Program-made: the position numbers and the translations under genes
Assembly (NCBI RefSeq): GCF_001282685.1
Contig: NZ_LN875035.1
Location: forward strand, 2,794,411-2,858,410
Reading direction: 5' to 3'
DNA: 64,000 nucleotides
Source of the DNA: Niameybacter massiliensis
Lineage (GTDB): Bacteria; Bacillota; Clostridia; Lachnospirales; Cellulosilyticaceae
In this document: one piece after another, positions 15,633 through 62,347 of the stretch
Layout: each line of letters begins with the position of its first letter
Numbering within the stretch: position 1 is the stretch's first letter
The notes under the pieces: generated by a model
Seen by the model: only the letters and a program-made list of their open reading frames with translations
What the model was told of the DNA's origin: nothing
Databases searched by the model: none

Positions 15633-15662
15633 GTAACCTTCTCCTTGTACATTTATATATAG

Positions 15663-15719
15663 AAAAAGCTAATTTAAGTTGTCCCCCCTTAAAACACATA
15701 GACAAACTTAAATTAGCTT
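15663..15719 (-). terminator. Long-stem terminator between the structured RNA and the SGNH gene
   Basis: Arms 15666-15683 and 15701-15719 (AAGCTAATTTAAGTT core) form about 18 bp, and the minus strand continues into five U. The loop contains a run of six G (AAGGGGGGAC on the minus strand). It ends the upstream RNA only about 30 bases before the SGNH start codon, so it is either the RNA's own terminator or an attenuator. Confidence 0.8.
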
Positions 15720-15723
15720 CTTT

Positions 15724-15889
15724 GTAGTGCCCATTGAGCTACTACTACGCTATATTCTCCTTTATAAAACCTTCCTAGTACTATACTTTGCTTACCAGGT
15801 GCAGCAGTCCTTCACCTAATTCCTCTCTTAGTGAAAAAAGCATCCCTCTTTTTATTATACACTGCAAGGTTTCAATTTAGGCACCCTAC
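15724..15889 (-). ncRNA. Structured noncoding RNA, family not established (raiA-motif-like is one hypothesis)
   Basis: About 500 bases between bioA and the SGNH gene hold no open frame but, read on the minus strand, show nested helices: GTAG-GG-TGCC (15880-15889) pairs with GGCACTAC (15724-15731); inside it AAACCTT (15866-15872) pairs with AAGGTTT (15767-15773); inside that AGGTG (15813-15817) pairs with CACCT (15797-15801). Unpaired parts are purine-rich. A consensus promoter lies upstream at 16026-16054 and a strong terminator downstream. This could be a stand-alone RNA or a leader controlling the SGNH gene. It lacks the cores of the TPP, FMN, cobalamin, SAM, lysine, glycine and T-box classes that I know. 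Confidence 0.55.
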
Positions 15890-15960
15890 ACTTATGGATT
15901 ACATTAAGTATAAAACTAGTCATGTCTATAATCTTATAGAATGTAGCTTAATCGTTAGTG

Positions 15961-15991
15961 CTATATAATAGCCACTTTTACTATTATATAG
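15961..15991. repeat. Perfect 11-bp inverted repeat upstream of the structured RNA
   Basis: CTATATAATAG (15961-15971), 9-nt loop, CTATTATATAG (15981-15991). A second small hairpin with arms AAAGAATTG / CAATTCTTT lies at 15994-16015. Both would be in the 5' part of a transcript from the 16026-16054 promoter and may be RNA helices or operator sites. Confidence 0.5.
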
Positions 15992-16025
15992 TTAAAGAAT
16001 TGATAGCAATTCTTTTTACAATTTA

Positions 16026-16054
16026 ATTATATAAACGTTTTTTAGACAAGTCAA
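16026..16054 (-). promoter_or_regulatory. Sigma-A type promoter driving the structured RNA / SGNH transcript
   Basis: On the minus strand TTGACT (16049-16054), 17-bp spacer, TATAAT (16026-16031). Expected start near 16018, about 300 bases before the terminator at 15719. No gene begins before that, so the transcript is first of all noncoding. Confidence 0.65.
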
Positions 16055-19860: not shown

Positions 19861-19888
19861 GTTAACATACAAAAAAATATAAGTCAAC
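19861..19888 (-). promoter_or_regulatory. Candidate biotin operator (BirA type) over the bioY promoter
   Basis: Half-sites GTTAAC (19861-19866) and GTTGAC read on the minus strand (19883-19888) are 16 bp apart; BirA operators in Gram-positive bacteria carry two GTTAAC-like halves about 15 bp apart. The same bases give a promoter: TTGACT as -35 and TAACTT as -10 with a 17-bp spacer. Repression of bioYBDA by biotin-loaded BirA is the inference; birA is not in the window. Confidence 0.45.
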
Positions 19889-19920
19889 TTAATTTTGCAT
19901 TTAAGTTGACTTATATTTTT
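19873..19920 (-). terminator. Palindromic terminator of the ABC/two-component operon
   Basis: 20-bp perfect arms (19873-19892 and 19901-19920) with an 8-nt loop and a U tract on the minus strand. One arm overlaps the last codons of the response regulator and the other overlaps the bioY promoter region. Confidence 0.75.
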
Positions 19921-20689
19921 GATTCATAAATTCTTTTGGCGAAAGTCCTACCCATTTTTTAAATACTGTACAAAAACTCTTATACTCAGAAAAACCTACC
20001 TTTTCAGCAACTTCATAAATCTTATATTCATGACTTAAAAGTAACTCTGTTGCTTTTTGAATACGATAGCCATTTAAAATTTCTCCAAAGGTATGACCTG
20101 TTACTTGTTTAAACTTTCTACTCAAATAGCTACTACTAATTCCCATTTCATCTGCTATCAATTCAATACTTAAATGTCCGGTATATTCTTGCGCAATCAT
20201 TTCTAATACTTTCTCAACTTGAGGTTGGGTCCCCTTTGCCTGCTCTAATAAAATGGCTGGGTTATAGAGTCTCTCTTGTTCTTTCGCTAATTGTTTAATA
20301 TCTTGAATTTGACCCTTTTCTTCAATTTTTTGTCTCAGACGTGTTAATGCACTTTTTAGATTCTCCTCATCTACAGGTTTTAAAAGATAGTCAAAAACTT
20401 GTAACTTAATTGCTTGTTTCGCATATTCAAATTCCTCGTAACTAGTAAGTAAAATACTTTCAAAATCATGTATCTTCTTCCCTTTTCTAATCATCTCTAT
20501 CCCATCCATTACAGGCATACGAATATCTGTAATTACAACATCTGGAAGATATTCCTCAATAAGTTCTAGCCCTTCTTGCCCATCACTTGCTTCTCCTACT
20601 ATTGAGCATCCCATCTCTAGCCAATCTATTGTGCTTATAAGCCCTTTACGAATAATCCACTCATCTTCTACAATTATTATTTTTAGCAT
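19901..20689 (-). CDS. AraC-type response regulator (YesN-like)
   Basis: 262 residues: receiver domain (1-120) with phospho-acceptor Asp55 in VVITDIRMPVMDG and the Lys of LLKPV, then an AraC-type double helix-turn-helix (about 160-258, ending VGFSEYKSFCTVFKKWVGLSPKEF). Partner of the histidine kinase encoded 40 bp upstream. Such pairs usually sit with and control ABC importers, here the one at 22.5-26.4 kb. Shorter linker than classical YesN. AGGGGG precedes the start. Confidence 0.92.
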   Translation of the reverse strand: MLKIIIVEDEWIIRKGLISTIDWLEMGCSIVGEASDGQEGLELIEEYLPDVVITDIRMPVMDGIEMIRKGKKIHDFESILLTSYEEFEYAKQAIKLQVFDYLLKPVDEENLKSALTRLRQKIEEKGQIQDIKQLAKEQERLYNPAILLEQAKGTQPQVEKVLEMIAQEYTGHLSIELIADEMGISSSYLSRKFKQVTGHTFGEILNGYRIQKATELLLSHEYKIYEVAEKVGFSEYKSFCTVFKKWVGLSPKEFMNQKYKST

Positions 20690-39905: not shown

Positions 39906-40763
39906 CTACTTGGCTAAGTTGTAGGCAATAAAACTCCCTAATACAAAACATAGGGTCGCTGTAATCCAGCTGAAGATACCATTTACAACTACTCCAGATG
40001 TAATCCATATAGCAATAGGTGATCCAATTACTAGCCCTATAATAGCCCAGTATACTAATGTCTCACATCGTTCTAAAAGGAATTCTATTATTTTAGCTAT
40101 AAGAAAAATCCCAACAACTACACCTATTCCAAATGGAACAAGAGGCATTCCTGAGGCAATACAGGTTACCCAGTCTAAATGGATTAATGCTTTTATACAA
40201 TGATTAATAGTTTCTATAATAGGTAAATAAAAACCCATAAGTGCTAAAATCATAGAACCACTTACTCCAGGGATAACCATTGTCGCTGCAGCTATAATAC
40301 CAACTAAAAATAGCTCTATCCCTCCAGCTATACTCATCGTTAAGACCTCTTGCGTTGTACTCGTTTCTTTCATTAAACTCATTCCTACTACAATGACAAA
40401 CATAACTAAAAAAGCTAGTATATAATTTCCTTTTACTGGTTTTCCCTTAACTTTTTTATATAGAATAGGTAATGCACCTATAATAAGTCCAATAAAGAAT
40501 AAATTTGTTTCTAATGGATAGTATTTAAAAAGCCATTCTATACAAAATGACAATCCTATTATCCCTGCTACTGCTCCTATTCCATAAGGTAGTAAGGTTG
40601 TAATACTCCTTTTAGGTTGCTTGAAAAATTGTGTAATGGCTTGTATGATTTGATCATAAATCCCCATAGATACTGCAAGTGTTCCACCACTTACCCCCGG
40701 AATAATATTGGCTACGCCAATGATGGTACCTTTTAATATTTGTTTAACAAATGCTCCACTCAT
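39906..40763 (-). CDS. DUF368 membrane protein (PopT-like undecaprenyl-phosphate translocase), copy 1
   Basis: 285 residues, about eight helices with an internal duplication marked by ANIIPGVSGGTLAVSMG and TMVIPGVSGSMILALMG. DUF368 proteins were shown in other bacteria to return undecaprenyl phosphate across the membrane for cell-wall synthesis. A second copy of identical length, about four-fifths identical, is at 46411-47268 on the same strand. TCTCCTT-type complement of an AGGAG ribosome site precedes the ATG. Single gene. Confidence 0.9.
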   Translation of the reverse strand: MSGAFVKQILKGTIIGVANIIPGVSGGTLAVSMGIYDQIIQAITQFFKQPKRSITTLLPYGIGAVAGIIGLSFCIEWLFKYYPLETNLFFIGLIIGALPILYKKVKGKPVKGNYILAFLVMFVIVVGMSLMKETSTTQEVLTMSIAGGIELFLVGIIAAATMVIPGVSGSMILALMGFYLPIIETINHCIKALIHLDWVTCIASGMPLVPFGIGVVVGIFLIAKIIEFLLERCETLVYWAIIGLVIGSPIAIWITSGVVVNGIFSWITATLCFVLGSFIAYNLAK

Positions 40764-46410: not shown

Positions 46411-47268
46411 CTACTGAGCTAAATTATATGCAATGAAGCTACCTAGTATAAAGCATAAAGTTGCTGTCACTAAACTAAATATACCATTTACAACAACTCC
46501 TGATGTGATGAGAATCGCAATAGGTGAGCCTACTACTAGTCCGATAATTGCCCAATATACCAGTGTCTCACATCGCTTCAATAGGAACTCTATCATCTTT
46601 GCAATAAGGAATGTTCCAATAACAATACCTAACCCAAATGGTACTAATGTAATTCCTGTAGTAATACATGTAGCCCAATCAAAAATTACTAAACTTTTAA
46701 TACAACTATTAATGGTTTCTATAATAGGTAAATAAAAGCCCATAAGTGCTAAAATCATAGATCCACTTACTCCTGGTATAACCATTGTTGCTGCAGCTAT
46801 AACGCCAACAAAGAATAGTTCAATACCTCCACCTAAACTAATACTTAAAACCTCTTGTGTTGGTTTTGTATCTTTCATAAAGCACATACCTACTACCATT
46901 GCGAACATTATAAGAAAAGCTAGTATATGGCTTCCTTTTTTACCTTGCCCTTGAACCTTCCTATACAAAATAGGTAGCGAACCTATAATAAGCCCTATGA
47001 AAAATAAGTTAGTAGCTAATGGAAAATATTTAAAAAGCCATTCAATACAAAATGATAATCCTATTATTCCTATGACTGCTCCTATCCCATAAGGTAGAAG
47101 TGTAATAATACTTTTTTTCGGTTGTTTAAAAAATTGTGTAATGGACTCTATGATTTGATCATAAATCCCCATAGATACTGCAAGTGTTCCTCCACTTACC
47201 CCAGGAATAATATTGGCTACTCCAATAATTGTCCCTTTTAGTATTTGTTTTATAAATGCTCCACTCAT
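46411..47268 (-). CDS. DUF368 membrane protein (PopT-like), copy 2
   Basis: 285 residues, alignable without gaps to the protein at 39906-40763, with both PGVSGG/PGVSGS motifs kept. Differences cluster in loops and in the middle helices (for example KGKPVKGNY versus QGQGKKGSH). Similarity extends into the ribosome-site region, so this is a fairly recent segmental duplication. Both copies look intact. Monocistronic. Confidence 0.9.
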   Translation of the reverse strand: MSGAFIKQILKGTIIGVANIIPGVSGGTLAVSMGIYDQIIESITQFFKQPKKSIITLLPYGIGAVIGIIGLSFCIEWLFKYFPLATNLFFIGLIIGSLPILYRKVQGQGKKGSHILAFLIMFAMVVGMCFMKDTKPTQEVLSISLGGGIELFFVGVIAAATMVIPGVSGSMILALMGFYLPIIETINSCIKSLVIFDWATCITTGITLVPFGLGIVIGTFLIAKMIEFLLKRCETLVYWAIIGLVVGSPIAILITSGVVVNGIFSLVTATLCFILGSFIAYNLAQ

Positions 47269-61321: not shown

Positions 61322-61629
61322 ATCTTTTTATTTTATATTTTTCTTCATTTTCTACTTTAACTTAGTTAAATCTACTAATTAGCTTTTTTCATTTTTGCTT
61401 TATTTACTTGTATAACTTGTCTATTTTTGCTTTTTTATTTTAGATATTTTAACAACAAAATAGCTCTTTTCCTAGAAATTCACTTTTTTCATTTAGAGAT
61501 AAAATCGATTAAAATTACTCCTATTTCACCTTGAAACCTCTTTTTATTTTTGTGAATAATGTCAATTGTATTTACACTTTACTCAGGTGTATAACTTTAC
61601 TATAGTCACTACATTACAACAAAATCTAA
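61322..61629. other. A+T-rich spacer with plus-strand promoter-like hexamers
   Basis: No open frame. Long T runs with TTTTTC repeats fill 61322-61560. Near the right end are promoter-like pairs on the + strand (TTGTAT 61566-61571 with TATAAC 61590-61595; TTTACT 61578-61583 with TATAGT 61601-61606). Their relevance depends on which strand of the neighbouring RNA region is transcribed. Confidence 0.35.
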
Positions 61630-62108
61630 TATAAAAGTTTAGATGAAATCACCATCCTAGGCACATGGTCTTATCTAAACCACTAAGAAGAAGTTTGAAA
61701 AGTTTTAGCCTCCCCCTTCTAAGGCCATTTAAACTTATTCTTAGGCACTAAATGGGTTGACCGTGGCAGTCTTCTCATTTAGTTACATATCTATTGACAC
61801 TTTTCTTAAAGCCATGTTCAATGCTATAACACACTTCATCTAAAGGTATGATTCAGATCTCTTTGCTTACGGTTAGTTACCCAGACAACCTGCAGTGATA
61901 ACTATAATAATAGCTCTTTCACCAACGGAACCTCTGTTATACACACCAACACAAATAGTTCATACTCTCACCTTTATATGAATGATTCTATCGTACTGAA
62001 CCCGTGCCTTACTCTTTAGTCAATAAATCATATTGCCACAAACACAACGAGCCAACCGAAGTCAGCCCATTTTAAGGGGGAGGCTAATTTCGGTTGGCTT
62101 GTTGTGTT
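61630..62108 (-). ncRNA. Large structured noncoding region, probable RNA of unknown family
   Basis: About 480 bases without a gene but full of helices: GTTTAGAT/ATCTAAAC (61637-61680) with inner ACCAT/ATGGT; CTAAGAAGAAGTTT/AAACTTATTCTTAG (61683-61744); CTAAATG/CATTTAG (61748-61782); and a 20-bp stem at 62041-62108. TTAGCCTCCCCCTT in the second hairpin loop (61705-61718) is the exact complement of AAGGGGGAGGCTAA in the last loop (62074-62087), a 14-bp long-range contact. Minus is preferred: loops are purine-rich there, a promoter-like TTGGCT-17-TATGAT is present near 62030-62060, and the 61637-61680 hairpin is followed by TTTTATATT. The strand is not certain. Confidence 0.5.
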
Positions 62109-62347
62109 TATACGATAATCTTCACTTCATCTCCATCTGCACTTTGTACATCTACAAGATGAAGTCCTTTATAACCCTTTAATGATTTTTTTATTACTTT
62201 ACAACATTGCAAAATAGATTTCTTTTGCTCCTTAGATAATTGCTCCTTCACAGCAAACCTCATAGCAGCTCTTACACCTACTCCGCTTAAGCAAAGTGGA
62301 ACAGGAATAAAGAATCTACGTCCCTCTGTCTTAATAATGATTCGCAT
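62108..62347 (-). CDS. Small protein with SADGD module (79 aa), SHOCT-like operon
   Basis: 79 residues. A hydrophobic FFIPVPLCLSGVGVRAAM segment is too short and polar-flanked to be a sure membrane helix. The C-terminal HLVDVQSADGDEVKIIV repeats the end of the upstream protein (IVSVDSADGDTVRIVIE). So the gene looks like a shortened copy of the C-terminal module of its neighbour. Eight-base gap from the upstream stop, with AGTAGGTG as ribosome site. Third gene of the DUF2089 operon. Function unknown. Confidence 0.75.
   Translation of the reverse strand: MRIIIKTEGRRFFIPVPLCLSGVGVRAAMRFAVKEQLSKEQKKSILQCCKVIKKSLKGYKGLHLVDVQSADGDEVKIIV

Follow-up and report, generated by a model that had tools for sequence, protein, structure and literature searches.

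RNA-only multimers are documented for the large bacterial RNAs OLE, ROOL and GOLLD, natural RNA multimers being called rare and the functions of these three being described as still poorly understood (PMC12286853, cited here and below from parts of its text). OLE is a dimer whose symmetric kissing loop is backed by palindrome switching (GGCC/GAUC/AGCU), and this argument for kissing loops was applied to OLE L9.3 and GOLLD L21a (PMC12286853). ROOL and GOLLD also form kissing loops and are encoded in phages and prophages, and many GOLLDs are longer than 800 nt (PMC12286853). The raiA motif RNA, whose conservation extends over more than 2,500 species (PMC11706538, from parts of its text), has a resolved structure that is monomeric (PMC12286853). 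The criteria for 'mobile/repeat sequence candidates' include multiple copies and inconsistent orientation (PMC11109978, likewise from parts of its text).

The locus considered here is an intergenic region (positions 61630-62108) of the window, the whole stretch of 64,000 nucleotides from Niameybacter massiliensis that was analysed. The initial annotation had described it as a large structured noncoding region that recalls OLE, ROOL and GOLLD and could not be matched to any of them.

Fold, pseudoknots and covariation

The stretch 61637-62109 was predicted to fold with a minimum free energy of -132.1 kcal/mol on the + strand (z -7.6) and -162.8 kcal/mol on the - strand (z -6.9), and on each strand 0/100 shuffles equalled this value. 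No frame of at least 50 aa overlapping 61630-62108 was found in the ORF check. With these values and the covarying paralogues described below, the description as a large structured noncoding region holds; gene decay, named initially as an alternative, is unsupported, the window copy having no long frame.

OLE, ROOL, GOLLD, raiA and HEARO are families in Rfam 15. Their covariance models gave no match in the window at the gathering score or in six copy loci (types A-E) under permissive settings, and none of the Rfam models reached its gathering score in the window, which also answers the check with large-RNA models that had been proposed. Permissive Rfam scans returned three matches to other families for the window copy and 19 matches for the six copy loci, all below the gathering score and judged to be chance. 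The complex fold with loop contacts and the lack of an Rfam match agree with the initial impression of an RNA that is like OLE, ROOL and GOLLD and belongs to none of them. No tRNA was found in the 64-kb window.

Each copy comprises hairpins P1-P3 at the 5' end, a central arm and a terminal hairpin (PT), joined by two pseudoknots, PK1 between the P2 and PT loops and PK2 between the P3 loop and the strand before PT (Table 1). A further long-range helix, P4, lies around the central arm, whose hairpin reads GUGAUAA...CUCUUUCAC as RNA and recurs in types A-E with its stem and an A-rich/pyrimidine-rich internal loop.

Table 1. Features of the window copy (positions in the window)
Feature	Position	Strand	Remarks
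Promoter-like TTGTAT-18 nt-TATAAC within TGTATAAC	61566..61595	+	Read from sequence
AATATAAAAG box just before P1	61628..61637	+	Identical in 8/26 copies
Hairpin P1	61637..61680	+	Both-side changes in 6/6 outer pairs; 93.9% of cells paired; n=19
Palindrome CCTAGG, proposed symmetric intermolecular kissing loop	61656..61661	+	P1 loop region
Hairpin P2 with inner stem	61683..61744	+	Both-side changes in 7/10 outer pairs; 95.6% of cells paired
PK1 strand, P2 loop	61705..61718	+	Exact complement of 62074-62087; duplex in 26/26 copies
Hairpin P3	61747..61783	+	Both-side changes in 8/8 outer and 4/4 inner pairs
PK2 strand, P3 loop (GTGGCAGT)	61763..61770	+	26/26 copies
P4 5' arm	61789..61798	+	Partner 62019-62028 in window
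Central hairpin GTGATAA...CTCTTTCAC	61895..61922	+	Recurs in types A-E
P4 3' arm	62019..62028	+	Partner 61789-61798
PK2 3' strand (ATTGCCAC)	62032..62039	+	Partner of 61763..61770
Terminal hairpin PT, taken as 3' end	62040..62109	+	16 outer pairs; 97% paired; n=25
PK1 strand, PT loop (AAGGGGGAGGCTAA)	62074..62087	+	Exact complement of 61705-61718

The two PK1 strands, TTAGCCTCCCCCTT and AAGGGGGAGGCTAA, are exact complements of 14 nt each (100% complementary), as had been noticed at the outset; by a rough estimate with equal base use, a match of this length is expected about 0.0005 times per 500 random nt. Of the long-range loop-loop pseudoknot that had been proposed from them, the pairing is borne out in 26/26 copies, with duplex energies of -13.0 to -28.9 kcal/mol. 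The full 14-bp core is not, being shorter in most of the seven copies that were parsed because TTAG and its partner are shared with local stems. Nor does this pseudoknot close the whole region, as had been supposed, since P1 lies outside it and a second pseudoknot exists. The mean PK1 energy was -19.6 kcal/mol with a copy's own partner versus -16.4 kcal/mol with the partners of other copies, and 0/10,000 permutations of the partners were as good, overall and within subtypes, the segments having been chosen by richness in C or G so that pairing is partly built in. On the - strand the means gave the same result with duplexes as good, and the test is thus silent on strand. In PK2, GUGGCA of the P3 loop (GUGACA in type B) pairs with UUGCCAC just before PT in 26/26 copies, 24 of them counted by script and A5 and A6 by a separate structure parse.

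In the alignments of copies, A4 was aligned with the structure of the covariance model R1 (see below) and is biased towards it; A1 and A6 rest on sequence alone, but the structures were still derived from the alignments on which they were counted. Changes on both sides of a pair were seen, always within paralogues of one genome, in 18/28 pairs for the first seven copies, in 25/28 pairs of the 5' domain for 19 copies (122 such cells vs 38 in shuffles) and in 16/21 pairs of the 3' hairpin for 25 copies (11/16 for the outer pairs of PT). Four of the five covariation measures were reached by 0/500 shuffles and the fifth, the count of pair types, by 1-3/500, and all measures collapsed when the partner was slid by 1-3 columns. 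The conserved pairing that had been sought as a check is in this way present, as compensatory changes among aligned paralogues of the same genome, and these sequences indicate that the structure is under selection. For P4, which was properly covered in the 24 copies other than A5 and A6, only 0-1 of 30 shuffles did as well in the seven type C copies and in A2, A3, B1 and D4; in the window copy 8/30 shuffles were as good and several copies were not above chance.

Copies, neighbouring genes and range

At least 26 full-length paralogues, the window copy included, were found in the one 4.57-Mb genome of N. massiliensis, with bodies of 422-516 nt (n=26) spread over four contigs (C8-C11), together with at least six partial or eroded copies (L085, L086, L089, L090, L105, L106). 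The full-length copies were grouped into types A (n=6, with the window copy), B (n=4), C (n=7), D (n=6) and E (n=3, mixed). By comparison of these copies, the existence of a multicopy structured family in this genome can be regarded as close to certain.

A DNA search of the genome gave 11 places that reduced to seven copies including the window copy, one place being the window hairpin on the opposite strand; the pieces were 71-89% identical to the window copy, itself excepted. R1, a covariance model built on the three hairpins of the 5' domain, gave 19 places, all of which were accepted, and R2, built from these 19, gave 27 places, of which 25 were accepted on reading and two (L058 and L059) were rejected as copies. 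A model of the 3' hairpin, R3, gave 83 rows, among which were other terminators and a hairpin counted on each strand, and added one full-length copy, C11:1155417(-), as well as the partial or eroded copies named above; its matches L107-L109 were unrelated terminators on reading. Frames of at least 60 aa overlap 5/26 copies (the longest, 124 aa, in C3), and no frame conserved across the 26 copies was seen.

Full and partial copies were observed to cluster, within 14-24 kb, at L115/L116 (C11:2599854-2613926) and at C11:1344940-1368445, and D1 and D5 form a tandem pair about 210 nt apart inside a copy cluster. At 15658-16054 (-) of the window itself stands a shorter, eroded relative, with a 3' hairpin detected by R3 (E 2e-9) and no match of R2 to a 5' domain. 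Another long hairpin at 19866-19928 of the window, matched by R3 at E 2e-4 (-) and 8e-4 (+) and with 18% G+C, is probably an ordinary terminator.

The flanking genes were diverse, the commonest Pfam family matching 3/96 flanking proteins; no neighbour gene was common to all 26 copies, whose orientation relative to neighbours was mixed, and no transposase or integrase was found among the most frequent 25 of the 129 Pfam families in the 96 flanking proteins. Phage-like neighbours, of replication type and/or endolysin type, were present at 4/26 copies. C4, D2 and D3 are located 78-97 nt after a gene whose product is similar to phage replication proteins and beyond which a sigma-factor-like gene lies, and C4, D3 and D4 are located 28-62 nt before an endolysin-type amidase gene. 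The amidases at C4, D3 and D4 are the genome's only matches at E<=1e-10, and in 10 loci of other genomes with related amidases (L136-L145) no such RNA was seen by eye upstream. These phage-like neighbours hint at a phage-like origin of the RNA family. The order sigma-factor-like gene, phage-type replication gene, RNA copy and endolysin-type amidase gene recurs (L122:3880-6984, L129:3209-6324 and L128:3716-6102, the last with the amidase missing) and is perhaps that of a reduced mobile unit. Elsewhere in the window, two closely similar genes of 285 aa, apparently for paralogous membrane proteins, are found 5.6 kb apart (39906-40763 and 46411-47268).

No convincing homologue was found in the genomes of the family, or in less powerful searches of wider genome sets, phages, plasmids and viral contigs. 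Among 58 other relatives, the DNA search found a single weak match, in G037 (L016, E 5e-4), which was judged to be chance on reading. The type A core pattern was present in 0/23 other genomes of the family, where R1 likewise gave nothing at E<=0.1, and R2 gave one weak match among 391 other genomes of the order and 397 of the phylum (overlapping sets), some of these wide searches having used stricter filters with seven candidates scored per genome; this match, again in G037 (L060, E 0.007), was also read as chance. Weak R3 matches were obtained in 16/39 other relatives (best E 9e-4), and R3 matched 5/390 other genomes of the class (best E 3e-6, in G588); the three of these five that were read (L100-L102) look like ordinary terminators after genes, L100 being without an R2 match. 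When GTDB was scanned, with no pattern but the type A core, five matches in unrelated taxa were obtained; on these, R3 gave one weak match (L027, E 0.02, about 0.8 kb from the pattern) and R2 one at E 0.89 (L028), both judged to be chance. Four patterns gave three matches in viral contigs, none of them matched by R2 or R3, and BLASTN against phages and plasmids, run with a single copy from each of types A, C and D, gave no match. Searches of the open-licence PMC literature showed no such family. Only one representative of the genus is among the 24 family genomes, so that the element may extend further than observed here.

Probable strand, promoter-like stretches and ends

The promoter-like stretch upstream of P1 (Table 1) is contained in TGTATAAC, which is located upstream of all six type A copies (as GGTATAAC in A4). 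A consensus promoter scan did not pick this stretch and gave six other or overlapping sites on both strands, compared with 3.8 expected. The box just before P1 is present in A1, A3, A4, A6 and B1-B4 and absent from A2, A5 and types C, D and E. In a survey that covered the sense side over all copies, TTGAC(A/T)-N17-TATA(A/T)T was found there at E2, at E3 and, as TTGACT-N17-TATAAT on the - strand, at the eroded copy of the window (15658-16054). By eye, many C and D copies have GACG(A/G)ATT or GAGGAAAAT about 13-17 nt before TATATATA-like stretches; the upstream promoter-like stretches seem to be type-specific, possibly reflecting different sigma factors or activators.

Read on the + strand, PT contains 29 G-U cells vs 2 A-C cells (cells not independent), and in the 5' domain the two are even (22:18). 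The consensus fold from alifold was -131.9 for the + strand vs -146.0 for the - strand, and only on the - strand did the terminator scan mark the PT hairpin as terminator-like. In the closest pairs (C3/C4, C5/C6 and D2/D3) the bodies are 94-97% identical and the 100 nt upstream 68-79% identical, whereas the 200 nt downstream are 18-41% identical, compared with 14-34% for unrelated stretches. Similarity upstream and near-background values downstream fit a promoter upstream and an end of the gene at the PT hairpin. Judged from these sequence features, the RNA is likely read from the + strand.

Proposed self-association, alternatives and known systems

At the same place in P1, 24/26 copies carry a palindrome, CCTAGG in 17, TCTAGA in five and GGTGGCCACC in two (CCUAGG, UCUAGA and GGUGGCCACC in the RNA); D4 and D6 are without a perfect one. 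Some 6-nt palindrome is found anywhere in 45 random nt with a chance of about 0.49, and the argument rests for this reason on aligned position and switching. Such switching points to pairing between two molecules, since adjacent bases of one loop cannot pair mutually. In minimum free energy folds of isolated P1 the palindrome was fully unpaired in 9/24 copies; in the others it took part, in whole or in part, in local pairs. In 13/26 copies the P1 loop had a partner elsewhere in its own RNA at least as good as self-pairing; few of these beat shuffles, namely C5 and C6, with D5 and C2 close to doing so (as good per 100: C5, 0; C6, 5; D5, 6; C2, 8), and no intramolecular partner fixed in position across types was found. 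From the palindrome we infer homo-oligomerisation. The switching, like the multicopy nature of the family and the second pseudoknot, was not part of the initial annotation; the same signature has been used in print for OLE and GOLLD.

The reading that we prefer, with a probability of a little under 0.6, is that the family encodes + strand RNAs that act in trans as dimers or oligomers in self-recognition classes. An RNA gene of about 470 nt with its own promoter would be transcribed from the + strand, and the RNA would fold compactly into a stable particle; such particles would join, in pairs or in larger number, by a symmetric kissing contact of the palindromic P1 loop. Because the palindrome differs between groups, the molecules would be expected to sort into the classes CCUAGG, UCUAGA and GGUGGCCACC. 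The RNA would then work in trans, as a scaffold that assembles itself, with OLE, ROOL and GOLLD as its nearest parallels, and may have arrived with a phage-like element, given that some copies have a phage-type replication gene on one side and an endolysin-type amidase gene on the other. The broader picture, of lineage-limited self-assembling RNA particles that have diversified within one genome into at least 26 genes and several orthogonal palindrome groups, possibly derived from a phage-like element, is put forward as tentative; the copies would then represent a natural set of RNA building blocks, each assembling with its own kind.

The chief rival, which we consider unlikely, is a non-autonomous selfish element, a structured mobile or repeat sequence that multiplied in the genome and whose structure serves mobility. 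The number of copies, their inconsistent orientation to neighbours, the partial copies and the phage-like neighbours at four loci would suit such an element, but the frequent flanking families include no transposase or integrase, and two copy-specific pseudoknots with sense-side promoters at some copies exceed the needs of mobility. The bodies of the close pairs are also far better conserved than their flanks, which recent movement could partly explain. It is rather improbable that the RNA is monomeric, with the P1 palindrome used within the molecule or by a protein, as in the monomeric raiA motif RNA, a precedent taken from the cited parts of PMC12286853. Good intramolecular partners of the P1 loop in C5, C6, D5 and C2 and the frequent local pairing of the palindrome in isolated P1 folds speak for a monomer; against it, no such partner is conserved in position across types, and three different palindromes occupy one place in a loop whose adjacent bases cannot pair mutually.

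Use of the structure on the other strand, as a minus-strand RNA or as folded DNA, is very improbable: the - strand folds at least as well and has the terminator-like call for PT, but the G-U excess of PT (29:2), the sense-side promoters of E2 and E3 and the similarity of close pairs upstream and not downstream all favour the + strand.

If the preferred reading of self-recognising + strand RNAs is true, the copies would be an example of large RNAs radiating as a gene family, and of RNA classes that are missed by cross-species searches and come to light when a genome is compared with itself. With 26 divergent members per cell, structure, assembly specificity and function would be testable within one organism, and the palindrome classes give a cheap and direct prediction, that like pairs with like.

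Among known systems, the family resembles OLE in being a large ornate bacterial RNA with a switching palindrome, oligomers being proposed here from sequence; unlike OLE, it has no Rfam match and at least 26 paralogues in one genome. ROOL and GOLLD are likewise large and ornate, and 4/26 copies of the new family stand beside phage-like genes, but the family differs from both in lacking an Rfam match, in the absence of tRNA from the window (the only stretch scanned) and in being multicopy and scattered over four contigs, and from GOLLD also in being shorter than the length of more than 800 nt given for many of its members. With the raiA motif RNA (ModT) it shares the character of a structured noncoding RNA of Bacillota, whereas that RNA is widespread and monomeric and the new family is without an Rfam match. 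Multiple copies and inconsistent orientation, named among the features of mobile/repeat sequence candidates, are both found here (26 copies, mixed orientation), and MRSC-65-2 is similar in having many structured copies per genome; as described in the cited parts of PMC11109978, however, MRSC-65-2 consists of one long stem and comes from diverse phyla, whereas the new family is multi-domain, pseudoknotted and found in one genome. As far as its sequences indicate, the family would work like the ornate self-associating RNAs, and by covariance model it falls outside OLE, ROOL, GOLLD and raiA.
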